Source: Sphingomonas sp. HMP6
GTDB taxonomy: Bacteria > Pseudomonadota > Alphaproteobacteria > Sphingomonadales > Sphingomonadaceae
Assembly: GCF_013374095.1 (NCBI RefSeq)
Contig: NZ_AP022672.1
Span: 1,735,501-1,799,500 of the forward strand
DNA: 64,000 nt
Reading direction: 5' to 3'
A model generated the notes under the pieces. That model was not told the origin of the DNA. It was given only the letters and a program-made list of their open reading frames with translations, and searched no databases. The stretch's first letter is position 1; every line of letters begins with the position of its first letter. Shown here piece by piece: positions 1,833-34,319 of the stretch. A program made the translations under genes and the position numbers.

Positions 1833-1846
1833 TCCTATAATAGAGG
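1833..1846. promoter_or_regulatory. Flagellar box A (divergent fliG / FlaEY-like)
   Basis: The sequence TCCTATAATAGAGG is close to the consensus of a recurring box. Its core, CCTNTANTANAGG, is an inverted repeat, so it can be read both ways. It lies 41 nt before the fliG ATG at 1883 and about 38 nt before the divergent GTG at 1798. It contains TATAAT and may be a -10 element, an operator, or both. Confidence 0.65.
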
Positions 1847-1882
1847 CATCCACCGACGCCGCTGCGCGTTAACCCTCAATAT

Positions 1883-2932
1883 ATGTCTGGATGCCGAATG
1901 AGCATGATGGCGCCAATCGCCCAGCCGGCCGAACTCAAGAAATTTTCCGGGCAGGAACGCGCTGCGGCGCTGATGCTCGCACTCGGCAAGGACCATGGCG
2001 CGCCGATCTGGGAATTGCTGACCAACGACGAAGTCCGCGAACTCTCCGCCGCGATCGCGCAGCTCGGACGCGTGCCATCGACTGTAGTCGAGCATCTGCT
2101 CGTGCAGTTTTCGGGAGAAATTTCGAGCATGGCATCGCTCCATGGCTCGTTCGAAACGACCGAGCGGCTGCTCGACGGCATCCTCCCCGAGGACCGCGTC
2201 AAGGAAATCATGGAAGATATCCGCGGCCCCTCCGGCCGGACGATGTGGGACAAACTGTCCAATGTCAGCGAAACCGTGCTCGCGACGTATCTGAAGAACG
2301 AATATCCGCAGACGGTCGCGGTGATCCTGAGCAAATTAAAGCCCGATCACGGGGCGCGCGTGCTCTCCGAACTACCACGCGAACTGTCGGTCGACGTCAT
2401 CTTGCGGATGTTGCGGATGGACACGGTGCAGAAGAAAGTGCTGGTCGAGGTAGAGACCACGCTCAAGACCGAATTCATGAGCAATCTGTCGCGATCGCAG
2501 CGGCGCGACCCGCACGAGACGATGGCCGAAGTGTTCAACGCGCTCGACCGCGCGACCGAGGAAGCGATGCTGACCGCACTCGACGAAAAGGCGCCCGAAG
2601 CCGCCGAACGCATCCGCGCGTTGATGTTCACGTTCGAGGATCTCGGTAACCTCATGCTGCCAGCCATCGCGACGATCGTCCGCAATGCCGACAAGCGCGA
2701 AATGGCGCTGGCGCTAAAGGGTGCGCCGCCCACGATGCGGGAGCTGTTCTTCTCGGGCATGACCGAACGATCGGCCAAGCTGCTGAAGGAAGACATGGCT
2801 GGCATGGGTCCGGTGCGCGCGCGCGAATGTGAAGAAGCGCAGAGCGCGCTGGTGCGCTTGGCCAAATCGCTCGCCGACAGCGGCCAGATCATGCTGGTCG
2901 ATCCCAAGAACGACGATGCGATGATTCTGTAA
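1883..2932 (+). CDS. fliG: Flagellar motor switch protein FliG
   Basis: FliG is the C-ring protein that couples stator movement to rotation and joins the MS-ring protein FliF to FliM/FliN. This 349-residue protein has the usual length. The N-terminal FliF-binding domain opens with an AAALMLALG segment. The middle armadillo part includes PQTVAVILSKL and LPRELSVDVILRM. The C-terminal part (after about residue 235) has the FTFEDLGNL and MRELFFSGMT elements. No strong ribosome site precedes the ATG at 1883; the ATG at 1898 (starting MSMMAP) is an equally good start. It is the first gene of a box-A unit with fliH. Here fliG precedes fliF rather than following it. Confidence 0.93.
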   Translation: MSGCRMSMMAPIAQPAELKKFSGQERAAALMLALGKDHGAPIWELLTNDEVRELSAAIAQLGRVPSTVVEHLLVQFSGEISSMASLHGSFETTERLLDGILPEDRVKEIMEDIRGPSGRTMWDKLSNVSETVLATYLKNEYPQTVAVILSKLKPDHGARVLSELPRELSVDVILRMLRMDTVQKKVLVEVETTLKTEFMSNLSRSQRRDPHETMAEVFNALDRATEEAMLTALDEKAPEAAERIRALMFTFEDLGNLMLPAIATIVRNADKREMALALKGAPPTMRELFFSGMTERSAKLLKEDMAGMGPVRARECEEAQSALVRLAKSLADSGQIMLVDPKNDDAMIL

Positions 2933-2957
2933 CCGCGCCATGAACCCGGGATATACG

Positions 2958-3629
2958 ATGGACTCGTCCTTCCACATCAAACCGTTCGCCTTCGACCGCG
3001 TCTTCGCCATGCAAAAGGGCGCGCAGGTGCCGAACGCGGCGGACAATATCGAAACGATCATCGTGCTGCGCGCCGAGATCGACCTGCTGAAGGCGCAGCT
3101 CGAAACCGCCACCGCCGTGGCACGCGCCGACGGCTTCGAAGGCGGTCTCGCCCAGGCCCGCAACGAGACCGCCGCGGCAATGCTCGCCGCGACCGATGCG
3201 CTGCACGCCTCGATCGAGGCGGTCGAACAGGAATTCGAGGAAATCGAACGGCGAACCTCGCGCGCTGCGGCCGACGTGGCGCTTGCCGCCGCCGATGGAT
3301 TGGCCGCGCGCGCCCTGGCCGCCGACCCCGCGCTCGCGATTGACGACGCGATCGGGCGCGTGCTCACGCAAGTGGCGCGCGGTCAGGAACTGCAGATTCG
3401 CGTCCACCCCGCGCTGATCGAAGCGACCGAGGCGCTGATCGCCGGACGGCAGAGCCGCGACCGGCGCCGCCTGTCGCTGACCGTCATCGCCGACGATACG
3501 CTGGCGATCGGCGATGCGTTGATCTCATGGGAGCAAGGCGGCTTGACCCTCGATGCCGCCGCGCGGCGTGCCGCGATCCTGACCGAGCTTGGCCTGGACG
3601 AGGCAGGCCGGGACCAAAACGCCGCTTGA
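2958..3629 (+). CDS. fliH: Flagellar assembly protein FliH
   Basis: FliH dimerises and regulates the export ATPase FliI at the flagellar type III gate. The protein has about 223 residues, with an Ala/Glu-rich helical middle (about residues 35-120) and a C-terminal domain ending in the family signature around DALISWEQGGLTLD. The ATG at 2958 was preferred because GGGAT lies upstream; an ATG at 2940 would add six residues. It follows fliG by 25 nt, so the two are probably co-transcribed. The next box (B) marks a new unit before fliF. The partner fliI lies far away at 29.6 kb. Confidence 0.85.
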   Translation: MDSSFHIKPFAFDRVFAMQKGAQVPNAADNIETIIVLRAEIDLLKAQLETATAVARADGFEGGLAQARNETAAAMLAATDALHASIEAVEQEFEEIERRTSRAAADVALAAADGLAARALAADPALAIDDAIGRVLTQVARGQELQIRVHPALIEATEALIAGRQSRDRRRLSLTVIADDTLAIGDALISWEQGGLTLDAAARRAAILTELGLDEAGRDQNAA

Positions 3630-3671
3630 CGGCAAGAATTACCTACCCGGCAAAATCTTCCGCCCACATCC

Positions 3672-3685
3672 TCCTATAATGATCG
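3672..3685 (+). promoter_or_regulatory. Flagellar box B (fliF unit)
   Basis: The sequence TCCTATAATGATCG keeps the left half of the consensus perfectly (TCCTATAAT). It lies 32 nt before the fliF GTG. The leader that follows carries GGGAGGGG at 3685-3692. Confidence 0.6.
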
Positions 3686-3712
3686 GGAGGGGTCATCGCC
3701 CCGATTGCACCA

Positions 3713-5341
3713 GTGGGGCCGATCTTGGACGGATTGCGAAAGTTCTTTGCGCAGCTTGGCACGCGCCGCCTGATGATCATGGGCGGCGTCGCCATCGCCT
3801 TGCTCGGCGTTCTGGCAGCGGTCGCGATGCGCGGCGGATCGAGCGAGATGGGGTATCTTTATACCGATCTCGATCCTTCGGTCGCGCAGTCGATGACTGC
3901 CAAACTGACCGCGCAGAACGTGCCGTTCCAGCTTTCCCCCGATGGCAGCGCGATTTTGGCACCCAAGGAAAAGCTGCCCGAATTGCGGATGGCGATGGCC
4001 GCCGACAAATTGAGCGGCAAGGTCGGGTACGATGTACTCGACGCCGAGCAACCCTTCGGCGTTTCCTCCTCGCGCGCGCGCATGAACGAGACGCGCGCGA
4101 TCGAGGGCGAACTCGAAAAGTCGCTGCAAAGCCTCGACAGTGTCGACCGCGCGCGCGTCCATATCGTGATGCCCGAACGCGCGATGTTCGCCACCGAATC
4201 GCGCAAGGCCACCGCGTCGGTCACGCTCAAGACACGCGGGAAACTGCCCGCAACGGCGGTGCAGGCGATCCGCTATCTGGTATCCTCCTCCGTCCCCGAA
4301 CTGTCCCCCGATCAGGTCTCGATCGTCGATCAGACCGGCGCGCTGCTCGCGCGGGCGGGCGAGGCCGACGACGGGGGTGCCGCCCAAGCCGACGACCGCC
4401 AAACGGGTATCGAAAACCGGCTACGTGGGCAGATCGAAGGTATGCTCGAGCCGATCGTCGGCGCGGGCAAGGTGCGCGCCGAGGTTTCCGCCCAGGTCGC
4501 GCGCGATCAGACGCGCGAGGAAAGCAACGTCTTCGATCCCGACAAGCAAGTGATCGGGCATCAGGTTACCGTCGAAAGCGGCGACCAGAGTAATGAGAGC
4601 GGAGCGACCGCCCCCGGTGCCTCGGTTGGCGCGCAGCTTCCCGAAAACAAGGGTGCTCCGCCCGCTGCGGGTGGCACCGGCGACAGCCGCAAATCGGCGC
4701 GCAACGAGACGTCCGAGGACACGACCTTCGAGAACAGCCAGACGCGCACCGTAACCGTCCGCGCGCCCGGCAAGCTCACCCGGTTGACCGTCGCAGTGAT
4801 GGTCGATGGCGGCAAGAAGGGTCTGCCCGCACCCGAGATCGCGCGGCTGACGCGGCTTGTCCAGAATGCCGTCGGGTTCGACGCGGCGCGCGGCGACAGC
4901 GTGGTGGTCGAGAACATGACCTTCGCCGCGGTCGACCCGTTCGCCGATGCCAAGGGCAGCTGGTTCTCCTGGGTTTCGATGGATCAGGTGTTCAGCCTGC
5001 TCAAGTTGATCGTAATCGCGGGCGTCGGGCTGATCGCGCTCCGAATGCTGCGCCCCAAGGTCACGCCCGGGCAACTCGCCGAAGAAGCGCGACAGCTGAC
5101 GGCGCAGACCGCCGAGGCGCAGGCCCTCGCCACGCGCGCGGCGGAAGGCGATCCCCAAGCGCTGCTGCAGATCGAGGCGATGCGCGAGGCAGGCGACGAT
5201 ACCTCGCTGCTCGATCAGGAAATCGCGCTCGCCCAGGTCGACGGACGCATCAAGCTCTCGTCGCTCAAGAAGATCGGTGACTCGATCAACGGCAGTCCGG
5301 CTGAGGCCGCGTCGGTGATCCGGCAATGGATGAACTCATGA
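3713..5341 (+). CDS. fliF: Flagellar MS-ring protein FliF
   Basis: FliF forms the inner-membrane MS-ring on which rotor and export gate are built. The protein has 542 residues. It has an N-terminal membrane segment (about residues 20-40), a YscJ-type ring domain with LYTDLD and VSSSRARMNETRAIEGEL motifs, a long Gly/Asn/Ser-rich periplasmic stretch (about 270-345), and a second membrane helix near 425-445. The cytosolic tail ends in LSSLKKIGDSINGSPAEAAS, typical of the FliG-binding end. The start is GTG at 3713; an in-frame TTG at 3725 is possible. It heads the box-B unit fliF-fliN-flbD-flhA. Confidence 0.95.
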   Translation: MGPILDGLRKFFAQLGTRRLMIMGGVAIALLGVLAAVAMRGGSSEMGYLYTDLDPSVAQSMTAKLTAQNVPFQLSPDGSAILAPKEKLPELRMAMAADKLSGKVGYDVLDAEQPFGVSSSRARMNETRAIEGELEKSLQSLDSVDRARVHIVMPERAMFATESRKATASVTLKTRGKLPATAVQAIRYLVSSSVPELSPDQVSIVDQTGALLARAGEADDGGAAQADDRQTGIENRLRGQIEGMLEPIVGAGKVRAEVSAQVARDQTREESNVFDPDKQVIGHQVTVESGDQSNESGATAPGASVGAQLPENKGAPPAAGGTGDSRKSARNETSEDTTFENSQTRTVTVRAPGKLTRLTVAVMVDGGKKGLPAPEIARLTRLVQNAVGFDAARGDSVVVENMTFAAVDPFADAKGSWFSWVSMDQVFSLLKLIVIAGVGLIALRMLRPKVTPGQLAEEARQLTAQTAEAQALATRAAEGDPQALLQIEAMREAGDDTSLLDQEIALAQVDGRIKLSSLKKIGDSINGSPAEAASVIRQWMNS

Positions 5342-5715
5342 TGGAAAGCTCCAATCCCATGGACAGCGATCAGCGCGACATGATCATCGCAAGCGAAACC
5401 GGGCCGGATGACTTTCCGCCGCTTGAAGATTTTGGCAGCGCGGCCCCCGCCGGAAACGCAGCCGCAAGCGCGCCGACGAGCCTTGAGGCGATCTATGACG
5501 TGCCGGTCAAGGTACAGGCGGTGCTTGGCCGATCGCGCATCGCGATCGGCGCGCTGATGCAGATGAAGGCAGGCGCGGTGATCGAGCTCGATCGGCGCGT
5601 CGGCGAACCGGTCGACATCTTCGTCAACAATCGCCTGATCGCGCGCGGCGAAGTGGTGATGATCGACAATTCGCTCGGCGTGACGCTGACCGAAATCGTC
5701 CGTCAGGAGCGCTGA
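5338..5715 (+). CDS. fliN: Flagellar motor switch protein FliN
   Basis: FliN is the C-ring component that forms the base of the switch and helps dock export substrates. This protein has 125 residues, with an acidic, disordered N-terminus (about residues 1-45). The SpoA/FliN domain follows, with YDVPVKVQAVLGRSRI, ELDRRVGEPVDIFVNNRLIA and RGEVVMIDNSLGVTLTEI. The ATG at 5338 overlaps the fliF stop as ATGA; a second ATG at 5341 is equally plausible. This suggests translational coupling inside the fliF unit. Confidence 0.93.
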   Translation: MMESSNPMDSDQRDMIIASETGPDDFPPLEDFGSAAPAGNAAASAPTSLEAIYDVPVKVQAVLGRSRIAIGALMQMKAGAVIELDRRVGEPVDIFVNNRLIARGEVVMIDNSLGVTLTEIVRQER

Positions 5716-5719
5716 GCAC

Positions 5720-7051
5720 GTGCACGCAACAGGGCCTGTTCATTTACTTCTGGTCGGCGCTCCCGGCACCGAATTCCGTACCGCCGCCGCGATGGCACGC
5801 GAAAGCGGCGCGCACGTCACGCTTGCGGACAATGCGGCGATGGCGCTGCAAATCCTGCGCGACGATGGTGGTGACATCGTGATGATCGATATCGATCAGG
5901 ACGTCGCGCGCTTCATCGCGCAACTGCGCTCCGAACGGATCGCGGTGCCGGTGCTCGCGTGCGGGATCGACGCGGCGGCGGACCGCGCGGTCGCGGCGAT
6001 CCGCGCCGGTGCGCGCGATTACGTGCCCTTGCCGCCGCAAGCAGACCTGATCGCAGCGGCGATCCTGTCGGTGTCGCAGAACGTCACGCGCATCGTCGGC
6101 GACGATCCGGCGCTTGGGCGCGCGATGGCGCTCGGGCTGGCGATGGCGCATTCCAGCGCACCGATGCTGATCGTCGGCGAAAGCGGCTGCGGCAAGGAAC
6201 TCTTCGCCCGCGCGATGCACGATGCGTCGGGCCGGCGCGGCCGTTTCCTGGTCATCGATTGCGCGAACAACAGCGCCGAAATTCTCGAATCCGAATTGTT
6301 CGGCCATGCCGCCGGTGCCTTCCCCGGCGCGCTCGCACGGCGGCGCGGACGGATCGATGAAGCGGTCGATGGCACCGTTTTTCTGCGCGACGTGGAGGCG
6401 CTCACCCCCGCGATCCAGGCGCGCCTGCTCACGGTCTTGCAAGGAACCCACGCCACCCGCCCCGCCGCCGATCCAGTCGCAATCCGCGCGCGGATCATGG
6501 CCAGCACCGGCGTCGATCTCGACGGATTGGTCACCAAAGGCCTGTTCCAGGGCAATCTGCTCGCGCGGCTCGGGTTGGTGCGGATCGCGCTGCCGCCGCT
6601 GCGCGCACGCGTCGGCGACATCGTGCCGATGGCGACATTCTTCGCGGAACGCTTCGCGCTCGCCAACGATCTGCCTCCCCGCCCTTTCGATGACGCGGCG
6701 ACGGCGTTGCTGCTGCAACACCAATGGCCCGGCAATGTCCGTGAGCTGGAGGATACGGTGCACCGCGCCGTCCTGCTCAACCGCGACGCGCACATCTCTG
6801 CAGACGCCCTCGTCACCGCCGATGGCTCCGCGCTCGGCTCCCCGACCGCAGCGGCACCGCATGCCGACAGCGCCGCATTCGTCGGTCGCACGGTCGACGA
6901 TATGGAGCGCGACCTGATCCTGCACACGCTGCGCCATTGCCGCGGCAACCGGACGCTTGCCTCGACGATCCTCGGCATTTCGGTGCGGACGATGCGCAAC
7001 AAGCTGAAGACCTTCATCGAGGCAGGCATCCCCGTCCTGCCCGCATCGTGA
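5720..7051 (+). CDS. flbD: FlbD/NtrC-type regulator with eroded AAA+ motifs
   Basis: This 443-residue protein starts at GTG and resembles the flagellar sigma-54 activator FlbD. It has a receiver-like domain (about 8-118, with the acidic site IVMIDID), an AAA+ domain (about 128-350) and a Fis-type helix-turn-helix (about 405-432). Walker A is intact (GESGCGKE, 153-160). The sigma-54 contact loop GAFTGA is GAFPGA (199-204). The Walker B FLDE position reads FLRD (221-224). The usual NRDL motif is GVDL (264-267), and the FRxDLYYRL element reads FQGNLLARL (276-284). Such losses would be expected to impair ATP hydrolysis and sigma-54 contact. It probably acts as a DNA-binding regulator without classical activator activity. 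It sits in the fliF unit directly before flhA. Confidence 0.82.
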   Translation: MHATGPVHLLLVGAPGTEFRTAAAMARESGAHVTLADNAAMALQILRDDGGDIVMIDIDQDVARFIAQLRSERIAVPVLACGIDAAADRAVAAIRAGARDYVPLPPQADLIAAAILSVSQNVTRIVGDDPALGRAMALGLAMAHSSAPMLIVGESGCGKELFARAMHDASGRRGRFLVIDCANNSAEILESELFGHAAGAFPGALARRRGRIDEAVDGTVFLRDVEALTPAIQARLLTVLQGTHATRPAADPVAIRARIMASTGVDLDGLVTKGLFQGNLLARLGLVRIALPPLRARVGDIVPMATFFAERFALANDLPPRPFDDAATALLLQHQWPGNVRELEDTVHRAVLLNRDAHISADALVTADGSALGSPTAAAPHADSAAFVGRTVDDMERDLILHTLRHCRGNRTLASTILGISVRTMRNKLKTFIEAGIPVLPAS

Positions 7052-7061
7052 CCGCCTGAGC

Positions 7062-9143: not shown

Positions 9144-9166
9144 AAGCGCCGCCGACCCGGCTTATC

Positions 9167-9180
9167 TCCTATAAAGGATG
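9167..9180 (+). promoter_or_regulatory. Flagellar box C (fliK-flgD unit)
   Basis: The sequence TCCTATAAAGGATG, 12 bases of which (TCCTATAAAGGA) are close to palindromic, begins 23 nt after the flhA stop. It lies 38 nt before the fliK ATG. Confidence 0.6.
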
Positions 9181-9213
9181 GGTCGGCCTGCGTGCCGGAC
9201 GGAAAGGCCCTGC

Positions 9214-12200
9214 ATGAATTTCTCCTCGACGGGCCCATCGACTGGACTGCCCGCCTGGCCCCAGGCTTCGCCCCGCTCCGCCGGATTGCCGGTGGTGACC
9301 GGCGACGACTTCGCACTCGCGATCGACGGGGCGATGGCGCTGCAGGCGGCGGTGGAGGACACGACGCCCCTTACGGCAGACGCGATTGCCGCAGGTGCTG
9401 CGCGGCGCTCGGCACCGATTGCACTTGGCGATACCGCGCCGGACGCCGTTCCCACCGCGCCGCCGACCGGCATCCCGCGCACCGCAAACCCGACCGCGCC
9501 GGTCCGGACACCAGCCGGTATGCCGCAGCCGACGCGCGATGCGCCTGGGCCAATGCCCGCAACCGTACCGGCTACCGCCCCGCCCCCGCTAACCGCCGCC
9601 GCTTCGAGTGCCGCGCCGATGAAGGATGCTGCCGCTGGACCGCTTCCGGCTGAGGCGTTGTTGAAGCCAGCAACGCCGATTGCGCAGAAACACGCAGGCC
9701 AAGCGCGGCCTGACGCCCGCGACGCCGCCGCAGCACCGGTGGCCGAGCGGACGACGGCGACTCCGGAAGCACCGGAGCAACCGGCAATGCCGACGGCAAA
9801 GGCGGCGATGCGCGTCGATGCTGCGGCGCGCGACGTCACGGCCCCGACTGCGCCGACGCCGCGCAGCGCGGGCGATCCTGCCCCGGTAACCGCTCCTGCT
9901 CCGGCCCCGGTCCTCGCAACCGTCGCCCCCGTGCGCGTGAAGGCCGCGTCCGCTATGCCGCCCCCGCAGGACGCGCCGCGCCCTGCCGCACCCAATTCAC
10001 CCGCGCCCACCCCGGCAGCGGAGCAAGCCGTCCCCAATCGTGTCGTCGCACACCCGAAGGCGCCGGTGCCGACGCCGCTGCCCCAACTTCCAACGGAGAC
10101 CGCGCGACCGCGTCTTGCCGAGGCCCCCGCGCCAGCGATCGACATGGCAGTCGAGACGGCTGCCTTGCCAAAAGTGAGCGCCCGGGCGCCCGCGATCGTC
10201 GCGGTCTCACTCGCGCCAGTGGCGCTTGCCGTGAAGGAAGGCGCGCTCGGCCGTACGGATCGCGCTGTCGGTGATGGCCGCGCCGCGTCGCCGGACGACG
10301 CTCCCCTGCGCAAGCTCGCGCCTAACGACGGTGCGCCCGTTCAAGCCAAGCCCGACTCGAGACCCGCCACGGTCGTCGTGGCGGCCGCTCCACCCACTGT
10401 CGAAACACCAGAAGCGTCGGTGCCGATATCAGCGGCGGTCGCGGCACCCGCGCCGATCGGGAGTGCAACGCCATCCGTCGCGCCCGCGGCGGAACCGCTT
10501 GCCCAAGCGAAAGCACCCGCAGCCGCACCCACTCGAGCAGCAGCCGCGCCCCCCGCTCCGGCCCGGCCCCGGCCCAGCCCCAGCCGCCGCTGCCGCCGCC
10601 GCTTCACCCGCCGGACCCGGCGCTGCCGAACGACCGCTTCCCGCCGCATCGGAAAAGATGCACCCGGCCACGCCGATCGTGACGGTGTCGGTTCCCCTGG
10701 TCACCCCGCATATCATCGCGCCGATTACGGCCAGCACCGCGCCAATCGCGGAGCGTCCCGCGCTGCCGGGCGTTCTTGCCGCCCAGACCGTTCCGCTGAT
10801 GCGAGTCGGCCCGCCGCGCATTGCCGTACCGGTTGCCCCCGCATCGCCGGATATGACGGCGATCGCCCCGGTTCCGGCGCCACCCGCTCACGCAGCCCCC
10901 GCACCCGTCGCCAACGCAGTCCCTGTCTCGGCCAGCGGCGCGGCGACGCTAACCCGGTCTCCGATCGCCGAGGCCGCGCCGCTGCCGCCCGCACCGGTCG
11001 AGCCGGATGCGCCAGTCGTAGCCCCCGCAGTATCCGCCGTGCCAGCGAGGCCAACGGGGCCTGCGACCCACGCAGCGCCCGCACTGCCGGCGGCGCACGC
11101 CGCGCCAGGCGCACCCGCAGTATTCACCGTGCCAGCGGCACCAGCCGCGCCAAGGGAACCCGAAGCGCCCGAAGCGCAGCCTGCCGGCAAGGCATCCCGC
11201 GCGAAGCCGGCGGCGATCCAACCGCAATCGCCAGAGGATCTCGTCGCACCAGTCCGGGCGACGCCGGTCCTTTCCACGCCATTCGTGTCGACGCCGGATG
11301 TAACGGCAACGATCCCGCTGCGATCCACCGTGCGTGAGCCAGCGGTCGCAGATCCGCCGCGCCGCGCCGCGCCGGATCGGCACGAGGCGGCAGATCAATC
11401 CGCGCCCCCCACAGTGCCCACGGTCGCACCATCGATCCTTCCCCAGATGATCCCGGTCGCGACGTCACTGCCCGCCGCTGCGTCGCGTACGGCGGACACA
11501 GCGGACAGGACGAAGCCGATCAGCGTCCAGCGCGCAGCGCCCGCGCTCGGCATGGCGAGCGTGGCAGCGCCGCCCCCGCGCGGCCAAGACATACCCGTGG
11601 CCGCGCACGATACCGCGCAACCGGCTGCACCATCGGATGCTCCGAACTTTGCCGACACGCTGCCGCCTGCCCCTGCCGACACCGGCGATGCCAGGCCAGC
11701 CCCCGCGCCCCTGCTGAGCGCAGAGCCACTTCGCACCCCCAATCCCCCACCGGTGGCCCCCCGCGCGCATCAGTCGGAAACGATCCCGACCCCCACCGTC
11801 ACCGCACATCCCGGCCAGATCGGCCGCGAGCTGGGGGTCGAGATCGCGCGGCGCGTATCGGCCGGCGGCAATGAGCTGCTCGTGCGGCTTGCGCCTGCCG
11901 AACTCGGCCGGATCGAGGTCCGCATGGCCTTCGACGATCGCGGCGGCCTGACGACGGTGATTGCCGCCGACAGCCCCATCGCGCTCGACATGCTGCGCCG
12001 CAACAGCGCCGATCTCAGCCGATCACTGAACGACGCGGGCTTCCGCAGCGACGCGCAAAGTCTGCGTTTCGACGGCGGTGGCGACCGTGGGGGTGATCGC
12101 GGTGGCGGCCAGCCCCGCACCCCGTGGCAGACCGCAACGCAGAAATCGGGCCCGTCGGACGATTTCGGCGCGGCCAGCGACTTCGAGCAAACCCCGTACC

Positions 12201-12241
12201 GCCAGCTGCGCACCAGCGGCCGCTACGACCTCATGGCATAG
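9214..12241 (+). CDS. fliK: Flagellar hook-length control protein FliK, frame break at a C6 tract
   Basis: FliK measures hook length and switches export specificity. The reading frame starts at ATG 9214 behind GGAAAGG. It codes for a very long Pro/Ala-rich ruler region in one frame up to about 10550-10590, then continues in the next frame to 12241. The C-terminal Flg_hook domain (about 11800-12080) has the diagnostic LVRLAPAELGRIEVRM segment. The span is one base too long for a single frame. Removing one C from the run of six at 10549-10554 would join both parts into about 1008 residues. A sequencing slip, a true mutation or phase variation are all possible. flgD follows 12 nt later. Confidence 0.85.
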
Positions 12242-12253
12242 GAGCCCGCCAAC

Positions 12254-12925: not shown

Positions 12926-13007
12926 CGCCGCGCACAGCGCGCGATGGCGCCTTCTAGCGCGCGCATCGCACGACCGATTCCGATCCAGTTACGGAAAATG
13001 CATCATA

Positions 13008-13625
13008 ATGAGCTGCTGCGCGATGTTCGTCGGCTGGCGCGATAACCTCGGCAAAGACTGCAGCCTTTCCTGCGACGTCCGTTTCGGCACCATGATAAAT
13101 GACCGCAGCTTCGAGCGCTCCGGCGGGTCCGATGCGCCGCCGTTCCTTGAGCGCAATGTCGTTGCGACATCGATCATTCCGGCCTGCCACCCCTCGGCGA
13201 GGGGGGCGGCCGCTGCGGGCGCCAATTCGGTCCTGCCCAGTGCGATCCACGTACAGGGCAATATGATCCAGTGGCAAACCGAAGATCGCGCTGGCACCTT
13301 CGTCGGCAGCGCAGCGGACAAACCGCCAGCGCCGGCATCGGCCCCACTTTGTGAACGGGAATGCACCGCGCATCAGGCTGGCCTCGGCTGGCCGAAGCGG
13401 CGCAGCCCGCGCTCGCGAAATTTATTTGCCCGCGCGCACCACGCAGAGGAATTGGTTCCTATTATAGAAGAGAGACCCGGATGCGCCCCCCTTGCATCCG
13501 GGTCTCGCTACATCGCGTGTCGTTCGATCACAAAATGGAAAAGACAGGCTGCCCCCTCAGCCTGTCTTTTTTGTTTTGGTACGAATGCGACGCGGGTCGT
13601 GGGGACAGCAGGATGCAGCGCTTAG
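13008..13625 (+). CDS. Doubtful ORF with PilZ-like pattern
   Basis: This stretch between flgD and the small RNA holds no confident gene. The plus frame from 13008 has high third-position GC. It shows a PilZ-like order: RSFER (an RxxxR motif, about residues 33-37), then HPSARG (about 63-68) where PilZ proteins have [D/N]xSxxG, and a strand-like GNMIQWQTEDRAG. If real, it could be a c-di-GMP-type flagellar brake with an altered binding motif. Against this, there is no ribosome site. The C-terminal third looks random and runs through the small-RNA hairpins and terminator, so the 3' end must be wrong or decayed. Confidence 0.28.
   Translation: MSCCAMFVGWRDNLGKDCSLSCDVRFGTMINDRSFERSGGSDAPPFLERNVVATSIIPACHPSARGAAAAGANSVLPSAIHVQGNMIQWQTEDRAGTFVGSAADKPPAPASAPLCERECTAHQAGLGWPKRRSPRSRNLFARAHHAEELVPIIEERPGCAPLASGSRYIACRSITKWKRQAAPSACLFCFGTNATRVVGTAGCSA
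13457..13470 (+). promoter_or_regulatory. Flagellar box D (small-RNA promoter)
   Basis: The sequence TCCTATTATAGAAG matches the box. It stands directly before a transcript with no coding sequence. With TATTAT at 13460-13465 as a -10 element, transcription would begin around 13471-13473, exactly at the base of the first hairpin. Confidence 0.55.
13472..13573 (+). ncRNA. Candidate small RNA with two C-rich-loop hairpins
   Basis: A short transcript is framed by box D and a strong terminator. Hairpin 1 is a perfect 13-bp stem (13472-13484 with 13494-13506) closing the loop GCCCCCCTT. A single-stranded linker of about 30 nt follows (13507-13538). Hairpin 2 is a perfect 13-bp stem (13539-13551 with 13558-13570) closing the loop CCCCCT and ending in a T run. 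C-rich loops in stable hairpins are a known design of alphaproteobacterial small RNAs that pair with Shine-Dalgarno-like G runs. No family is claimed. The promoter-like box, the exact start and the terminator together make it a good candidate. Confidence 0.6.
13539..13572 (+). terminator. Rho-independent terminator of the small RNA
   Basis: The stem AAAAGACAGGCTG pairs with CAGCCTGTCTTTT across a 6-nt loop, followed by T residues to 13572. The A-rich left arm means it can also stop minus-strand transcription. Confidence 0.85.
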
Positions 13626-14056: not shown

Positions 14057-14190
14057 GAGAATATCCCTCTTTATCATCAACTAGGCGGCACGCGTTGAGC
14101 CCTGAGCAACTGAGGATCGCAATGGTCTTGTCGCACGCCCGACGATATTGAGGGAATGTCCCTAACCAAGACGGATGATGCCCTGCCGCG

Positions 14191-14595: not shown

Positions 14596-14664
14596 CGCGG
14601 ATTCCTTCAGTTATGACGGGGATTGCAGCCGGATCCGATCCAGCGCTGCCACCTGAAGAGGAAA

Positions 14665-15671: not shown

Positions 15672-15685
15672 CCTTTATTGTGGGA
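15672..15685 (-). promoter_or_regulatory. Flagellar box K (flagellin)
   Basis: On the minus strand the sequence is TCCCACAATAAAGG, a C/C variant of the consensus. It lies about 88 nt before the flagellin ATG, which leaves the longest leader of the set. Confidence 0.5.
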
Positions 15686-18589: not shown

Positions 18590-18651
18590 TTCCGTTCGCT
18601 CCAGATAAATCGTCGGTCGGAGCGCACTAGGCAGAAATTGCCGCACGCTTA

Positions 18652-18665
18652 TCCTATATTAGAGG
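18652..18665. promoter_or_regulatory. Flagellar box E (divergent flgF / fliL)
   Basis: The sequence TCCTATATTAGAGG is a symmetric form of the box between two divergent flagellar units. It lies 73 nt before the fliL GTG and about 66 nt before the flgF ATG, so it could serve both directions. Confidence 0.6.
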
Positions 18666-18733
18666 GGAATTGAACGAATGGCGCGGCGGCGGGCAGTTTC
18701 TCGCAAAGTCGCCGCCCAACGAAAGGCGATCCC

Positions 18734-21773: not shown

Positions 21774-21779
21774 CCACTC

Positions 21780-21793
21780 ACCTATAATAGAGG
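21780..21793. promoter_or_regulatory. Flagellar box F
   Basis: The sequence ACCTATAATAGAGG differs from box A only in its first base. It lies 29 nt before the ATG at 21818 on the plus strand and close to the start of the divergent gene. Confidence 0.6.
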
Positions 21794-21817
21794 ATACACG
21801 CCCCAGAAGGACATTTC

Positions 21818-23880: not shown

Positions 23881-23934
23881 TGCGCGGGCGTTGGACGGTA
23901 GGGATTGGCAGCAAGCGGACATCGCGAGTGCCGT

Positions 23935-24576: not shown

Positions 24577-24652
24577 CTGCGCATTCTACCGAACGCCTCA
24601 ACGACCGCAACTGGCTGTAGTTTCAGCCGATCGCCCACGCCCCCCAAGCGCA

Positions 24653-25561: not shown

Positions 25562-25572
25562 GTGCGGTGTCC

Positions 25573-27672: not shown

Positions 27673-27690
27673 GCCGATATTTCCTCACTC

Positions 27691-27712
27691 GGGCGGGCCG
27701 ACCGGCCCGCCC
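27691..27712 (-). other. Intercistronic hairpin flgE/flgK
   Basis: A perfect 9-bp stem (GGGCGGGCC with GGCCCGCCC, loop of 4) lies in the 53-nt gap between flgE and flgK. It has no T tract on either strand, so it may adjust mRNA stability or partial read-through rather than terminate transcription. Confidence 0.5.
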
Positions 27713-27725
27713 AATTACCCTGCGA

Positions 27726-29027: not shown

Positions 29028-29076
29028 GGATAATCTCCGGAAAGAAGGTCCGCGCGACATCAGCGGCGCTCGGCTC

Positions 29077-29090
29077 CCTCAATTGTAGGA
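29077..29090 (-). promoter_or_regulatory. Flagellar box J (flgE unit)
   Basis: On the minus strand the sequence is TCCTACAATTGAGG, two bases off box A. It lies about 54 nt before the flgE TTG start and is divergent from box G. Confidence 0.55.
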
Positions 29091-29156
29091 GGGGTTCGGC
29101 GCGGAATCGTGATTCAGCGCGAAATTCCTGAAATCGCTCCGGCGCTTCGGCGGCCA

Positions 29157-29170
29157 TCCTATAAGATGGC
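29157..29170 (+). promoter_or_regulatory. Flagellar box G (flbT unit)
   Basis: The sequence TCCTATAAGATGGC keeps the left half of the consensus; CATCCTATAAGATG around it is close to palindromic. It lies 28 nt before the flbT ATG. Confidence 0.55.
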
Positions 29171-29193
29171 ATATATTCAGGAGGATTTTACCG

Positions 29194-29610
29194 ATGACCC
29201 TGCGAATTTCCCTGCGCGACGGCGAGAAGCTAATCGTCAACGGTGCGGTGCTGCGTGCGATCGGCCGCACCGACCTGTGCGTCGAGAATTCCGTTTCGCT
29301 GCTGCGCGGCCGCGAAGTGATGTCGCCAGACGACGCCGTCACCCCCGCGCGGCGGCTCTATTACGCGTGCATGATCGCCTATATCGATCCGCACGGCGCC
29401 ACCGCGCACCATGACGAGATCGTGCGCTATCTGCATGATCTACTCGGCGCACTCGAGGCGCCCGAAGCCAAGGCGGCGTGCGCCAGCTTCGCGCGCAAGG
29501 TCGCGACCGGCGATTTCTACCGCGCGCTGGCGGATTGCCGCGCGCTGATCGACTATGAAGCGGCGGCGATCGGCCGCACCGCGCCGCAGGTCGCCCAAGC
29601 CGCCGCATGA
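29194..29610 (+). CDS. flbT: Flagellin post-transcriptional regulator FlbT
   Basis: FlbT binds flagellin mRNA in Caulobacter and limits its translation before the hook is finished. This protein has 138 residues. The family signature is clear: LRISLRDGEKLIVNGAVLRA, VENSVSLLRGREVMSPDDA and TPARRLYYACMIAYID. No FlaF partner gene is recognisable nearby. An AGGAGG ribosome site lies just upstream. It overlaps fliI by 4 nt, which puts filament control in the same unit as the export ATPase. Confidence 0.93.
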   Translation: MTLRISLRDGEKLIVNGAVLRAIGRTDLCVENSVSLLRGREVMSPDDAVTPARRLYYACMIAYIDPHGATAHHDEIVRYLHDLLGALEAPEAKAACASFARKVATGDFYRALADCRALIDYEAAAIGRTAPQVAQAAA

Positions 29611-30932
29611 AAGCCCTTGCCGCCGCCGCGCGCAGTTTGCGTGACTTGTCCCCCGACCAACGCTTTGGCCGGGTGATCGGCGTGCGCGGTGCTTTGATCG
29701 AGGTCGAGGGCCTGACCGGCGCCGCGCAGATCGGATCGCACATCACCGTCGCCGGTGCCGAGGGCGCGGTCGCGGCGGAAGTCACCGGGCTCGACCGTGG
29801 GGTGGCGCACTGCCTGCCGTTCAGCGATCCGCAGGGGATCGCCTCGGGCGCGCGTGCCGATTTGATCGCAGGGCGTTTCGTCGTCCGCCCATGCGACGCG
29901 TGGCTCGGCCGCATGGTCGATGGGCTCGGCCGTCCGATCGATGGCAAGGGGACGCTCCCGGTCGGGCCGGATCCACGTCCGATCAAGGCTCCGCCGCCCC
30001 CCGCCGCACAGCGTGCGCGCGTCGGCGCACGTATCGCTACCGGGGTGCGCGCGCTCGATCTGTTCGCGCCGCTCTGCCAGGGCCAGCGGCTCGGCCTGTT
30101 TGCCGGCTCAGGCGTGGGCAAATCGGTGCTGCTGTCGATGCTCGCGCGCTGGACCGGTTGCGATATCGCGGTGATCGGGTTGATCGGCGAGCGCGGCCGC
30201 GAAGTGCAGGAATTCGTCGAGGACGATCTCGGGCCAGAGGGCCTCGCGCGCAGCGTCGTGGTCGTCGCCACCTCCGACGAACCCGCGCTGATGCGACGTC
30301 AGGCCGCGTGGACCACGCTCGCGATCGCAGAACATTTCCGCGACCAGGGGCTGAACGTGCTGTGCCTGATGGACTCGGTCACCCGCTTCGCCATGGCGCA
30401 GCGTGAGATCGGTCTCGCCAGTGGTGAGCCCGCCGCGACCAAGGGCTATACGCCGACCGTGTTCGCCGAGCTGCCGCGCTTGCTCGAACGTGCCGGTCCT
30501 GGGCTTCCCGGACAGGGATCGATCACCGGCCTGTTCACCGTGCTGGTCGATGGCGACGATCACAATGAGCCGGTCGCCGATGCGGTGCGCGGCATCTTGG
30601 ACGGGCATATCGTCATCACGCGCCGCATTGCCGAGCGCGGACGTTACCCCGCGATCGACATTCTGAAATCGGTCTCGCGCACGCTGCCAGGGGCGCTCGA
30701 TCCCGATCAGAACACGCTGCGCCTTGCCGCGCGATCGGTCCTGTCGACCTATGCCGACATGGAAGAGATCGTCCGGCTCGGTGCCTATCAGACCGGCGCC
30801 AATCCCGAGGTCGATCGCGCAATCGCGCTCGCCCCACAAATCGAGACGCTGCTGACCCAGACCAAGCAGGATCGCGGCGATTTGACCGACAGCTTCGCGG
30901 CGCTTGGCGCGATCATGGAGGACCCGTCATGA
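29607..30932 (+). CDS. fliI: Flagellum-specific export ATPase FliI
   Basis: FliI is the ATPase that powers and orders type III flagellar export. It has 441 residues, with a beta-barrel N-terminal domain, Walker A GLFAGSGVGKS (about 162-172), the GLIGERGREVQEF block and Walker B VLCLMDSVTRFA. The F1-beta-like layout matches FliI, not a housekeeping F1 subunit. It overlaps flbT upstream and fliJ downstream by 4 nt each. Confidence 0.97.
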   Translation: MKALAAAARSLRDLSPDQRFGRVIGVRGALIEVEGLTGAAQIGSHITVAGAEGAVAAEVTGLDRGVAHCLPFSDPQGIASGARADLIAGRFVVRPCDAWLGRMVDGLGRPIDGKGTLPVGPDPRPIKAPPPPAAQRARVGARIATGVRALDLFAPLCQGQRLGLFAGSGVGKSVLLSMLARWTGCDIAVIGLIGERGREVQEFVEDDLGPEGLARSVVVVATSDEPALMRRQAAWTTLAIAEHFRDQGLNVLCLMDSVTRFAMAQREIGLASGEPAATKGYTPTVFAELPRLLERAGPGLPGQGSITGLFTVLVDGDDHNEPVADAVRGILDGHIVITRRIAERGRYPAIDILKSVSRTLPGALDPDQNTLRLAARSVLSTYADMEEIVRLGAYQTGANPEVDRAIALAPQIETLLTQTKQDRGDLTDSFAALGAIMEDPS

Positions 30933-31384
30933 ACACCCCGTTCGATGCAGCTCTGCGGCTACGCCAGCGCGAGATGGATGCGATGCGCGTGTCGATCAGC
31001 GTCCAGGTCAATCACTTGATGGTGATCGAGGAAACCCGCGAGACGGTCGATCGCTCGGTCGCACGCGAAGTGGAAATCGCCGCAAGCAATTGGGGCAGCT
31101 CGGCGCACGCCTTCATGGCCCGCATGCGCACACAGCGGGAGCGGCTGCTGCGCGAGCGCGCGACCGTCAACGCCCGGCTGACCGGCCTGCGCGCGCAAGC
31201 GGCCGAAGCCTATGGCGCTTTGCGCGCAATCGAGGGCGCGGCGGCACGCTTTCGCGCCGAGGCCGACCGCGTCGCGGCCACGGCCGAGCAGAGCCGCGCC
31301 GATGACTTTTCCGCTGCACGTTTTTCCCGGGCGCAGGATGTGATTCGTCGTTCCCGCGCTGCCGCGGATCGCGATGAGCTATGA
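30929..31384 (+). CDS. fliJ: FliJ-like flagellar export chaperone
   Basis: FliJ is a coiled-coil protein that sits in the FliI ring and contacts FlhA. This 151-residue protein is almost entirely helical and charged, with heptad-like Arg/Glu/Ala spacing and few hydrophobic patches. Sequence signatures for FliJ are weak in general, so the call rests on length, predicted coiled coil and its place directly after fliI with a 4-nt overlap. Confidence 0.78.
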   Translation: MNTPFDAALRLRQREMDAMRVSISVQVNHLMVIEETRETVDRSVAREVEIAASNWGSSAHAFMARMRTQRERLLRERATVNARLTGLRAQAAEAYGALRAIEGAAARFRAEADRVAATAEQSRADDFSAARFSRAQDVIRRSRAAADRDEL

Positions 31385-32382
31385 TTGCAGCCACCGATCT
31401 CACGCGCCTTGCGCCGGCCGAAAAGGCCGCGTTGATCTATGCCCAGGCGCAGAGCGACGTGTCCGCGCGGCTGTGGCGCGCGGCATTGGGCAGCGACGAC
31501 AACGCCGAGCGTAATTCATCAGCATCGTCGCAATGCCCCGAATTCAATCTCGATTCGTTGCTGTCGCTGCTGATGCCAAAGGCCGATTCCAGCACGGCGA
31601 GCGTTCCCGAACCGGTCGTGGCCCGGCCGACCCCGAACGGGCCGACCTCAACCGCGCCGTCCCCAGGCGCGGTGCCCCCGGCTGCGCTGCCCCCGGGCGA
31701 GCCAACCGTCGCTATGGTGCCGCTGCACGCAAGTGCCGTCACCGGTCTCGGCCCGAACGCCCGCTACCGCGCCACGCTCGATGCCGCAGCGGCGCGTACC
31801 GGGATCCCGGTCGCAGCCCTCACGGCGATCGTCGATGCCGAGGCCGGCAAAAACTGCGACGGCGTTTGGAACACCACGTCGCGCAACCCGCGGTCGAGCG
31901 CGGCGGGCCTTGGCCAATTCCTCGGCGGCACCTGGCAAGGCGAAGCTGAGCGCGCCGGCACCTGGCTGCACGATGTCGCCACCAAGCAGGGCTGGCTGGG
32001 TAATGATGGCCGGGTGCTCCCAGCCGCCCGCTCGTCGCTGCTCGCGCTACGCTATGATGCCACGGCGTCGATCAATGCGACTGCGGACTATGCACTGCGC
32101 AGCGTCGCCCAGTTGAAGCGTGCCGGGATCACGATCGGCAACGATGTCGTGACCGTCGCGCGGGCCGCCTATCTTGGCCATCACTTGGGAACCGGCGACG
32201 CGATCCGCTTTCTCAAAGGCGGGCTGGACCCCAGTCGCGCCAAGGTATTGCTCGACGCGCAGATCGGCACGGCCAGCGCGAATCAGCGAATCGCCCAGAG
32301 CGGCGATGCCGCCGCAGCGCACCGTTCGTGGCTTTTGGGATTTATCGACCGCCACATCACCCCCGCGCGCTTTTCAGCCTGA
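31381..32382 (+). CDS. Flagellar-locus lytic transglycosylase-like protein
   Basis: This 333-residue protein has a low-complexity Pro/Ala linker (about 65-115) before a lysozyme-like domain. The putative catalytic glutamate lies in AIVDAEAGKNCDG (about 148-160), followed by SSAAGLGQFLGGTW, which matches the GLxQ-type transglycosylase motif. No signal peptide is visible; export could be through the flagellar system. It overlaps fliJ by 4 nt and ends the flbT unit. Likely task: opening peptidoglycan for the rod, as FlgJ or SltF do elsewhere. Confidence 0.78.
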   Translation: MIAATDLTRLAPAEKAALIYAQAQSDVSARLWRAALGSDDNAERNSSASSQCPEFNLDSLLSLLMPKADSSTASVPEPVVARPTPNGPTSTAPSPGAVPPAALPPGEPTVAMVPLHASAVTGLGPNARYRATLDAAAARTGIPVAALTAIVDAEAGKNCDGVWNTTSRNPRSSAAGLGQFLGGTWQGEAERAGTWLHDVATKQGWLGNDGRVLPAARSSLLALRYDATASINATADYALRSVAQLKRAGITIGNDVVTVARAAYLGHHLGTGDAIRFLKGGLDPSRAKVLLDAQIGTASANQRIAQSGDAAAAHRSWLLGFIDRHITPARFSA

Positions 32383-32445
32383 GCAGATCTCAGAAGATCG
32401 TTTATTATCAGTATTTTGAAAGCATACATCAGAAGGATTAGGTAG

Positions 32446-32482
32446 AACTTCTTATAGGACAATAACTATCCTGTTAAAGGAC
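32446..32482. promoter_or_regulatory. Flagellar box I pair before the sigma gene
   Basis: Two box-like sites lie 9 nt apart. On the minus strand at 32446-32459 the sequence is TCCTATAAGAAGTT. On the plus strand at 32469-32482 it is TCCTGTTAAAGGAC, 83 nt before the sigma start. Both deviate from the consensus. The 32383-32559 gap is AT-rich and otherwise empty. Confidence 0.45.
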
Positions 32483-32559
32483 ACCCCTCCAGATAGACCC
32501 ATCACAGGGAAGGGTTGGCAAGGGGCCGCCATCCCACAGTTTGTTTGGGGAGACATAGG

Positions 32560-33660
32560 ATGTCGAAGACCACCGTCGCACTGGAAGCAGCCGTTTCCGC
32601 CGTCATTGCGAACATGCCGAAGGGCGATGACATTTCCCCTGCGCGCCAGCGCGCCGCAGTCGACAAAGCCTTCTCCGCGATCCTCAAACTGATCGCCCCC
32701 CGCATCCGTCATTTCATCCGCCAATACGGCCTGGTCGCCCATTGGGAAGACGCCGAGCAGTGCTGCGCGATCGCCGTCCACCGCGCGATCCTGGGCTATG
32801 ATCCTGAAAAGGCGATGTTCACCACGTTCGTCAATTGGCAGATCCGCGGCGAGCTCCAGAGCTTGCGCTTCCGCGTGATGACCGACCAGCGCCCCTCCGC
32901 CAAGAAGGTCGATGCGACGACCGTGTCGCTCCATTCCGTCGTGTCGGGAGCCGAAGGCGACGAAGCAACGCTCGAAGCCATCATCGAGGACGAAGGCGCG
33001 CTGGCCCGCACCGAAGCCGGTGCCTCCGACTATTTGGCACAGGCCGCCACCCGCTCGCTGGTCGAGGAGTATATCGAACATCAGCGCCTCGCCGGGATCG
33101 AACAGCTGCGCAAGCGGCCGCGGCCCAAGCGGATCGTCGGCGCCGAGCCGGTCGATCACGCCGCAGCGATGCTCCGCCGCCCGCGCACGCACGGCGTATG
33201 CCCGATCGAAGTTGCCAAGCTCGAACAGAAGCTCGGCCGCGACAAGGAAATCGTCGAGCGCCGCGTGTTCGATGCCGCGACGCTGGACGAACTGGGTGCC
33301 AACACGGGTGTCACCAAGGAACGCGTCCGTCAGATCACCAAGCGCGCATCGCGCACGATCGCAGAGCTTGCCGCAACCAATCCGCGCTTCGCGGTGATGG
33401 CTGAGTATCGCAAGACTCCCCTTCGCCCGCTCCGCGCCCGCGCGGCGAAGCGCCCGTTGGATGCCGCCCCCGTGGCGCTCCTGCCGGCGCTGGGCCAGCC
33501 ACACAACACGCTTGCCCGCGTCGTCGCGATCGAAGCGCAGACTGCCCGTCCGTCGCAGCGCGCGCCCCATGATCTCGAATCGATCGTCGCGGCGATCGTC
33601 CCGACGGTCGCATCCGACCTGCTCGACGGGAATGCGCCGGGCAGCAACGCGCGCCACTGA
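32560..33660 (+). CDS. Sigma-70-family factor of the flagellar island
   Basis: This 366-residue protein has a sigma region 2-like segment (about 58-112, with EDAEQCCAIAVHRAILGYDP and FTTFVNWQIRGELQSL) and a region 4 helix-turn-helix (about 241-267, TLDELGANTGVTKERVRQIT). Between them is an unusual spacer of about 125 residues, and behind region 4 a tail of about 95 residues. It does not look like FliA, whose region 4 and 240-residue length differ; region 4 recalls RpoD/RpoH. The ATG at 32560 follows GGGGAGA; a frame open from 32515 lacks a ribosome site. Its place and its own box suggest it directs flagellar transcription from the recurring box. That link is inference. Confidence 0.85.
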   Translation: MSKTTVALEAAVSAVIANMPKGDDISPARQRAAVDKAFSAILKLIAPRIRHFIRQYGLVAHWEDAEQCCAIAVHRAILGYDPEKAMFTTFVNWQIRGELQSLRFRVMTDQRPSAKKVDATTVSLHSVVSGAEGDEATLEAIIEDEGALARTEAGASDYLAQAATRSLVEEYIEHQRLAGIEQLRKRPRPKRIVGAEPVDHAAAMLRRPRTHGVCPIEVAKLEQKLGRDKEIVERRVFDAATLDELGANTGVTKERVRQITKRASRTIAELAATNPRFAVMAEYRKTPLRPLRARAAKRPLDAAPVALLPALGQPHNTLARVVAIEAQTARPSQRAPHDLESIVAAIVPTVASDLLDGNAPGSNARH

Positions 33661-33747
33661 TCCGAAGAGACACTATCGGAGCGCGGTGCTGCTGCCGATG
33701 CGGCAGCCCGCGTGCCGCAATTCCCTCTCTAGGAAAAGGCGCGCGGC

Positions 33748-34281
33748 ATGAATTCGGCCCGGACGAAATCGTTTATCGGCCACGTACCAATGCCGCCGCC
33801 GCGCAGTTTGCCCGGCATGGACCGCGCGCTGACGCGCATCGCGACGCGCTTGGTCCGCCACGCCCGTCCGCTACTCCGGGCGAACAATGCCTTCCTCCTG
33901 ACGATGACAACCAACACGCGGGATGAGCAGGCACCATTGTGGACCGGCTTCTGGGATACGCGCGGCGCGCTTACCCCCCTCCCCCCGGCGCCCCGCAGTG
34001 GCACGGCGCAACGACACTTCGCCGCGCTCGAGACGGCGGGAGTCCTTCTATTGTCGGATTTGATCTGCCGCTGGCCCGCCAATGCGATTCCGCCGGTGGT
34101 CGGGATCTTCACCGACGGCGGCGGCGTCGCCTTTTCTTCCGATTATCCCTCGCCACTGTCGTCCAACTGGCTGGCGCACCATCAGGCGGGGCTGTGCCCG
34201 ACCACGACGCTGCTGCCTTTCCGCCCAAATGGTGCGTGGGCACGGCTAATCGCACCGACGATGGAGCCTTTCATCCACTAA
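33748..34281 (+). CDS. Hypothetical protein after the sigma gene
   Basis: This 177-residue protein is of unknown family, with codon use like its neighbours. It has a basic N-terminal third (about 1-45) and a folded-looking rest with APLWTGFWDTRGALTP, then LETAGVLLLSDLICRWPAN and VVGIFTDGGGVAFSSDYP. It shows no signal peptide or membrane helix. It lies 87 nt after the sigma gene and may share its transcript. An anti-sigma or cofactor role is conceivable from position only. Confidence 0.6.
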   Translation: MNSARTKSFIGHVPMPPPRSLPGMDRALTRIATRLVRHARPLLRANNAFLLTMTTNTRDEQAPLWTGFWDTRGALTPLPPAPRSGTAQRHFAALETAGVLLLSDLICRWPANAIPPVVGIFTDGGGVAFSSDYPSPLSSNWLAHHQAGLCPTTTLLPFRPNGAWARLIAPTMEPFIH

Positions 34282-34305
34282 GCGCGATTGAAATTTGGTA
34301 TACCA

Positions 34306-34319
34306 TCCTATAAAGGATC
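34306..34319 (+). promoter_or_regulatory. Flagellar box H (XRE regulator)
   Basis: The sequence TCCTATAAAGGATC contains the same 13 bases as box C (TCCTATAAAGGAT). It lies 50 nt before the XRE gene. Confidence 0.6.

Follow-up and report, generated by a model that had tools for sequence, protein, structure and literature searches.

Which promoters drive the flagellar gene cluster of Sphingomonas sp. HMP6? We examined a stretch of 64,000 nucleotides (nt) of contig NZ_AP022672.1 (positions 1735501-1799500; hereafter the window), which belongs to a 3.6-Mb genome on a single contig. Short coordinates below are positions within the window and seven-digit ones are genome positions. An original prediction, made from the letters of the window, placed a palindromic box before every flagellar unit and took it for a shared -10-like element or operator of a whole flagellar regulon. 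Here we argue that the boxes probably form a dedicated class of -10-only promoters that has replaced control by sigma-54 and FlbD at this locus; their most likely reader is a sigma-70-family factor encoded in the cluster itself (32560-33660, + strand).

The boxes are concentrated in one flagellar cluster

The boxes were found where the original prediction had placed them and are far more frequent than chance would allow. The 14-mer TCCTATAATAGAGG (at most three mismatches) occurs at 10 sites in the window compared with 0.51 expected, a number reached by none of 100 shuffles, and TCCTAYAAT (at most one mismatch) at 14 sites compared with 4.4. Thirteen of these 14 fall within the window's first 36 kb and one within its last 28 kb. 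Expressed per 10 kb, TCCTAYAAT densities are 3.6 and 2.6 within the flagellar cluster, compared with 0.36 elsewhere in the window and 0.5 around a second flagellar locus. The loose 14-mer by itself is not diagnostic, with 52 sites genome-wide (at most three mismatches) compared with 81 for a reversed control. Only three 14-mer matches in the genome have no or one mismatch, and every one is inside this cluster. The genome has 14 exact matches to TCCTAYAAT (8 to a reversed control), five of them in this region, and four of the seven exact copies of TCCTATAAT fall at 1713933-1739172, inside or just left of the window.

A matrix trained on 53 promoters from relatives, with no sequence of this genome, was then run over 99.5 kb, over 40 kb around the second flagellar locus and over nine 4-kb pieces chosen for an exact 9-mer. 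All 14 scores of at least 16 in the 99.5 kb lie at 1707893-1769803. Nine are among the 11 sites of the original prediction and five lie left of the window, in a stretch that the earlier reader had not seen; the boxes there are therefore an independent test. Four of these five precede motility genes. The boxes left of the window stand ahead of motA (followed by STAS, receiver, CheA-, CheW-, CheR-, CheB- and CheD-type genes), of flgI, of a short gene upstream of a weakly matched FliO gene, of a protoglobin chemoreceptor and of a HAD-type gene. The highest matrix score is 13.4 within the window's final 28 kb and 15.1 around the second flagellar locus, where nothing scores 16 or more.

The box is present at orthologous starts in all eight relatives with a syntenic cluster. 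Six promoters (fliG, fliF, fliL, flgE, flbT and fliK) keep it with at most one mismatch in 45 of 54 rows (39/48 without this genome). Box A (1833-1846), between fliG (+) and a FlaEY-like gene (-), has no mismatch, gives the top matrix score (23.8) and has counterparts in the eight relatives. Box B, the predicted fliF promoter (3672-3685, +), is an exact TCCTATAAT and has no or one mismatch in seven of the eight. Box C, ahead of the fliK unit (9167-9180, +), scores only 12.8 here and yet is kept with at most one mismatch in seven of the eight. A wider comparison used the best 80 of 98 relatives as named loci (Sphingomonas, Novosphingobium, Sphingobium, Blastomonas, Alteriqipengyuania, Stakelama and others), 63 of which have a measurable flgE-flbT spacer. 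With no or one mismatch, counterparts of the flbT box (TCCTATAAG, 29157-29170, +) are present in 48 of these spacers and of the flgE box (TCCTACAAT, 29077-29090, -) in 51, compared with 20 of 1260 shuffles. No box was found near mapped flagellar starts in the clusters of G022, G056, G052 and G007, which lack the sigma gene.

The boxes resemble -10 elements without a -35

To describe the promoters, 90 rows were collected, of which 77 had at most two mismatches and 73 were full length; these orthologous rows are not independent of one another. The conserved core of these 73 box-aligned promoters is TCCTATAAT, with TCC-TATAAT oriented toward the gene. A purine occupies the predicted +1 in 58 of the 73 (48/53 in the six promoters named above). 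The sequence just past it is A-rich, and an A/T-rich stretch lies some 30-40 nt upstream. At -7, a T has been retained by 44 of the 53 rows from the six promoters.

The original prediction saw no common -35 element, and the 73 promoters agree: no conservation was found there, and TTGACA (at most two mismatches, spacer of 16-18) occurs in two compared with about six expected from shuffles. Apart from the A/T-rich stretch, no other element is as strongly conserved between 60 nt upstream and 28 nt past the box start. Full CtrA sites near the -35 (TTAA-N7-TTAA) were found in none of the 73 and TTAACC half sites in one, and the -24/-12 element (TGGCAC-N5-TTGC) in none. Across the window, sigma-54 -24/-12 sites number 59 compared with 71 expected, none with at most one mismatch in the first 36 kb. 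The sigma-28 consensus is TAAA-N15-GCCGATAA; two sites with two mismatches were found in the window (1.6 expected), one of which ends just before the start of an XRE regulator gene. Sites for sigma-54, CtrA and sigma-28 and a TTGACA -35 are thus all at or below chance and were rejected. Of the two roles first suggested for the box, this comparison favours a -10 promoter element over an operator, within a flagellar regulon as had been proposed.

The sigma gene accompanies the boxes

The product of the proposed reader gene has 366 residues. Pfam reports Sigma70_r4 (33.1 bits, cut-off 24.1) and no region 2; region 2.3-2.4 aligned to RpoS at only 5 bits, and the FliA/WhiG profile gave 21 bits with a cut-off of 190. 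Among 397 genomes of the family, a close ortholog (more than 390 bits) is present in 25, and 22 of these carry a close alpha-type FlhA (at least 71% identity, one of them partial). A distant FlhA (52-66%) without the close sigma was found in seven of the 397. A FliF and FliG tree was rooted on clusters that lack the sigma gene; all genomes with the gene group together in it as a single clade (0.993), with some weak inner nodes. Alignment A1 did not include L038. Of the 21 sigma-bearing genomes whose FlbD is described below, 9 had their boxes checked. Since boxes and sigma gene co-occur, we infer that this sigma reads the box.

One of the genomes with a distant FlhA, G038, encodes a remote homolog of the sigma factor close to its cluster, and no FlbD was found in it. 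Its long-branch alpha-type cluster (L139-L141, L055) has, by eye, GCTATATAGC at the fliG divergon and may represent a divergent form of this switch.

The region upstream of the sigma gene (32451-32482) is variant and partly conserved, with TATAGGA (a reverse box) and a weak forward box, TCCTGTTAAAGGAC. The opposite-strand copy at 32451-32459 scores 14.5, and reverse ATAGGA units are found in 47 of 71 loci. TATAGGA repeats were seen in L201, L205, L214 and others, and several Novosphingobium loci have two or three of them, in some cases spaced by about 20 bp. A full CtrA site upstream of the sigma gene was rejected, being present in only 2 of 71 loci; TTAACC half-sites are present in 23 of 70, compared with 7% in shuffles.

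FlbD has decayed and its probable site persists

FlbD (5720-7051, +) has a ruined AAA+ domain, with GAFPGA and FLRDV in place of GAFTGA and LLLDE, and an intact Fis-type helix-turn-helix. The same decay was found throughout the 21 sigma-bearing genomes examined: in ten the FlbD is full length but neither motif is intact, and in 11 the AAA+ domain is gone, the helix-turn-helix being kept. The FlbD of this cluster type thus has neither GAFTGA nor the Walker B DE in any of the 21. The sigma-lacking clusters differ: FlbD is intact (GAFTGA, LLLDE) in all four full copies (G022, G056, G052 and G040), and in G007 it is frame-broken, with pieces that keep both motifs. The decay of FlbD thus tracks the sigma gene, and in the FliF and FliG tree the deleted FlbDs are nested within the sigma-bearing clade (0.981). 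Sigma-54 sites (TGGCMC-N5-TTGCW, at most one mismatch) in the sigma-lacking clusters number 19 in G040 (4.2 expected), 8 in G052 (3.4), 5 in G007 (4.0) and 2 in G056 (0.6), and are placed ahead of fliK in G052 and ahead of flgK in G040. Sigma-54 control likely persists in these clusters.

A second palindrome, GGCAAnnnTTGCC, recurs at set distances from the boxes. With at most one mismatch, its centre precedes TCC by 18-19 nt in six of the eight relatives for fliF, by 16 nt in seven of them for fliL, by 31-37 nt in flgE-flbT spacers and by 34-36 nt at a further site (the FliO side in this genome). In HMP6 the fliL copy (GGCAGAAATTGCC, 18630-18642) shares the spacing of 16 nt and the fliF copy (GGCAAGAATTACC, 3631-3643) is centred 35 nt ahead; a looser copy (two mismatches, by eye) occupies the 18-19 nt position used by the relatives. 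The palindrome is found in 48 of the 63 named flgE-flbT spacers compared with 0.5% of shuffles. When two mismatches are allowed, it lies 34-36 nt away in 29 of 38 spacers with an flbT box, and in the 40 spacers with an flgE box it lies at 31-33 nt in 13 and at 51-55 nt, about two helical turns further, in 16. Moreover, it is found near fliF in G022, G056, G052 and G040, which keep FlbD and lack the boxes.

The palindrome is probably the site of FlbD, and we tentatively equate it with the Caulobacter ftr element; its distribution fits a FlbD site that outlived a change of promoter core. Having lost the sigma-54-activating AAA+ domain and kept its helix-turn-helix, FlbD would act at GGCAAnnnTTGCC as an ordinary DNA-binding regulator. 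At fliF and fliL, where the site covers the -35 region, it would probably repress, and from its positions further upstream of flgE and flbT in the relatives it would probably activate.

This palindrome bears on the alternative that survives best, namely that the box is a -10 read by RpoD, with an activator (such as the FlbD helix-turn-helix protein or CtrA) substituting for the -35, and that the cluster sigma has a different role. TATAAT is the general -10, a missing -35 is typical of activator-dependent promoters, and a palindrome at set distances could position an activator. However, in this genome the palindrome (at most one mismatch) accompanies only the fliO-side, fliF and flgF/fliL boxes, and CtrA sites are as scarce at the box promoters as given above. 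The co-occurrence of boxes with the sigma gene also speaks against RpoD, as does the T at -7, which according to the accessible text of one study is not conserved in more than 80% of the sigma-70 promoters of Novosphingobium aromaticivorans (PMC8407463). We consider a box read by RpoD rather unlikely, and recognition by the cluster sigma remains our preferred reading.

Symmetric boxes lie between divergent gene pairs

The claim of a palindromic box before every unit was borne out in part: copies at three divergent gene pairs are palindromic, whereas single-direction copies are mostly asymmetric. The three are box A, a box between flgF (-) and fliL (+) at 18652-18666 and one between a gene of 78 residues (+) and a FliL-like gene (-) at 21780-21794; the latter two were recognised by 14-mer match, comparison with relatives and symmetry scoring. 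For the scoring, a matrix trained on single-direction promoters was applied to the reverse strand, leaving out the FlaEY and FlgF rows (the same boxes as FliG and FliL on the other strand); again the rows are not independent. Divergent boxes scored higher than single ones (fliG and fliL, 18 rows compared with 42, p = 4e-5; an earlier test gave 6e-5). With the divergon of the 78-residue gene included the difference was p = 7e-7 (27 compared with 42 rows); FliL2 rows were included in the final test and left out of the earlier one. Twenty of the 27 divergent rows score above 5 (12/18 at fliG and fliL, 8/9 at the third divergon) and the other seven below; fliG boxes in six relatives have poor reverse-strand scores. 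The two predicted starts are 18 bp apart in 19 of the 20 boxes scoring above 5, the exception being the fliL box of this genome. Starts of bidirectional promoters are most often 18 bp apart (PMC10268837, PMC12825309, in their accessible parts). From the reverse-strand scores and the 18-bp spacing, the palindrome is therefore most simply explained as a pair of divergent -10 elements that overlap at a single site, rather than as an operator, and the agreement of the third divergon strengthens this interpretation. At the three divergent pairs the box would serve as a -10 on both strands, with starts usually 18 bp apart.

Symmetric copies could also be expected of an operator, bound by the neighbouring XRE protein or another repressor, with the true promoters elsewhere. 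The TATAGGA repeats upstream of the sigma gene, and an XRE gene near the sigma gene in 37 of 80 named loci, would suit such a role. Against it, the single-direction copies are mostly asymmetric and oriented toward the gene, no other equally conserved element is found nearby save the A/T-rich stretch, and purines are enriched exactly at the expected +1. An operator in place of a promoter is therefore improbable, and a -10 element remains favoured.

Other features of the window

The weakest boxes are those ahead of the sigma, XRE and 'small RNA' units. Box K (34306-34319, +; matrix 17.8) precedes a double-helix-turn-helix XRE regulator (34365-35537, +) that adjoins the sigma gene. In 37 of the 80 named loci a relative of this regulator follows the sigma gene at a distance of at most 1.5 kb, and box K has looser counterparts there (at most two mismatches in 26/37, compared with 13.5% of shuffles). 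With at most one mismatch there are only 3 in 37, and box K was rejected as a conserved XRE promoter.

The box ahead of the putative small RNA (13457-13470; TTCTATAAT / TCCTATTAT, matrix 20.2 and 14.6) has one-mismatch counterparts in the flgD-flagellin gap of G043, G123 and G131; no match with at most one mismatch was found in that gap in G071, G107, G021 and G006. By eye, a strong hairpin directly follows the box here (13457-13510) and in G043 and G123, and may belong to a small RNA or to a terminator. Rfam matched no RNA family in positions 1-36000 at gathering thresholds, and with this and its patchy conservation the small RNA was set aside. The flagellin promoter box (15672-15685, -) is a variant, TCCCACAAT; only two of nine rows have at most one mismatch, and most relatives have TCCCAGAAT.

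The fliK gene is apparently split over two overlapping frames (9178-12241). The frame at 9178-11337 opens behind box C and has no Pfam match, and the Flg_hook domain is in the frame at 10271-12241. The second flagellar locus (G000:C1:2830000-2869999; L147, L148) is of another type and has few boxes, and its FlbD-like sigma-54 activator keeps GAFTGA and LLLDE.

Two or three flagellar-type sigma copies were seen in several Sphingomonas genomes (L173/L178, L162/L167, L172/L194/L199), some without flgJ alongside. No further cluster gene lies close to the sigma-like paralogs of genomes without a close cluster (G132, G060, G119 and others). Short sigma-region-2-like proteins in G132, G060, G119, G048, G141 and G122 lie in conserved non-flagellar neighbourhoods, often, by eye, beside an efflux-pump-like gene.

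Weighing the proposed model

In the model that we prefer, TCC at -15 to -13 and TATAAT at -12 to -7, without a -35, would drive the alpha-type flagellar and chemotaxis genes, with the product of 32560-33660 the most likely reader. A fuller version has a sigma that reads only an extended -10 replacing sigma-54 for the entire flagellar system, the early divergons placed on shared bidirectional -10s and FlbD re-used as a plain repressor or activator; this is a tentative proposal, to which we give slightly less than even chances.

Several observations weigh against the model. A sigma factor with region 4 is expected to read a -35, and none is conserved at the boxes. The structure model, used for the fold of the sigma factor alone, is modest (mean predicted local distance difference test score, pLDDT, 67.8), and the sigma-factor folds matched by Foldseek reach a best E of 1.4e-3, none at or below 0.001; the sigma-2 domain of SigC matched with TMt 0.75 and E 0.9. 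The forward box of the sigma gene itself (32469-32482) is outside the matrix top 40, and the TATAGGA repeats beside it are operator-like, so some operator role there is possible. Co-occurrence has its exceptions: in G039 the sigma gene adjoins flgJ with the other cluster genes absent and no box in 48 kb, in G262 it is about 2 Mb away from the flhA cluster, and the copy in G006 has a stop inside the matched stretch. The genome of G022 is only 67% complete, so the absence of sigma there is uncertain, and in G040, where sigma is lacking, a box with one mismatch stands 88 nt ahead of flgK, in DNA of 48% GC where box matches are many and scattered. The excess of sigma-54 sites in sigma-lacking clusters is modest except in G040, and the flgE-flbT spacer of HMP6 has no palindrome with at most one mismatch. 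Lastly, a matrix scan of the kind that the original prediction proposed as a check singled out the cluster and passed over the second flagellar locus, but the nine 4-kb pieces gave two matches of at least 16 ahead of non-motility genes, one (19.7) about 100 nt ahead of the likely start of a TonB-dependent receptor and the other (16.2) ahead of a peroxiredoxin.

Relation to known flagellar systems

With the sigma-54/FlbD (ftr) hierarchy of Caulobacter crescentus the cluster shares a related gene set with FlbD and FlbT and a palindrome at fliF, the site of repression by FlbD via ftr4 in Caulobacter (PMC3930126, accessible part). It differs in its dead or deleted FlbD AAA+ domain, the lack of -24/-12 elements, and the TCCTATAAT boxes with a cluster-encoded sigma-70-family gene. 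That such a sigma-54/FlbD/CtrA hierarchy operates here, with the boxes incidental, is very improbable: the genome has rpoN, the cluster has FlbD, FlbT and FlaEY-like genes and the scheme has been assumed for Sphingomonas sp. WG (PMC8921679, accessible part), but FlbD lacks the GAFTGA threonine and the Walker B aspartate, or its whole AAA+ domain, and -24/-12 matches are at or below chance in the window and absent from the box promoters.

The fla2 set of Rhodobacter sphaeroides is likewise one of two flagellar sets, has divergent promoters and does not use RpoN (given as unpublished in PMC6180460). It has CtrA sites near the -35, unlike the boxes here, and the accessible part of that paper was not found to mention a matching sigma gene. 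Bidirectional promoters of E. coli and Salmonella also have overlapping symmetric -10s with starts mostly 18 bp apart (accessible parts of PMC10268837 and PMC12825309); there this is a general property of sigma-70 promoters, whereas here it is kept at three orthologous flagellar divergons. The sigma-28/FliA regulon also has a sigma-70-family factor dedicated to flagellar genes, but FliA-type sites are at chance here, the sigma factor is only weakly FliA/WhiG-like and it would serve early and late genes alike. We found no description of the box or of the cluster sigma in the accessible parts of the literature searched, which held few subscription papers.

Flagellar control in sphingomonads is described as poorly known (PMC8921679, accessible part). 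For this type of cluster, the FlbD sequences argue against the sigma-54/FlbD scheme assumed for Sphingomonas sp. WG. If the proposed model is true, a switch between sigma classes would be traceable step by step in living lineages, from an intact FlbD through a ruined AAA+ domain to its deletion, and an operator palindrome would have been kept while the promoter core was exchanged. It could also help to explain the separate control of the two flagellar systems of plant-associated Sphingomonas (PMC13015449, accessible part).

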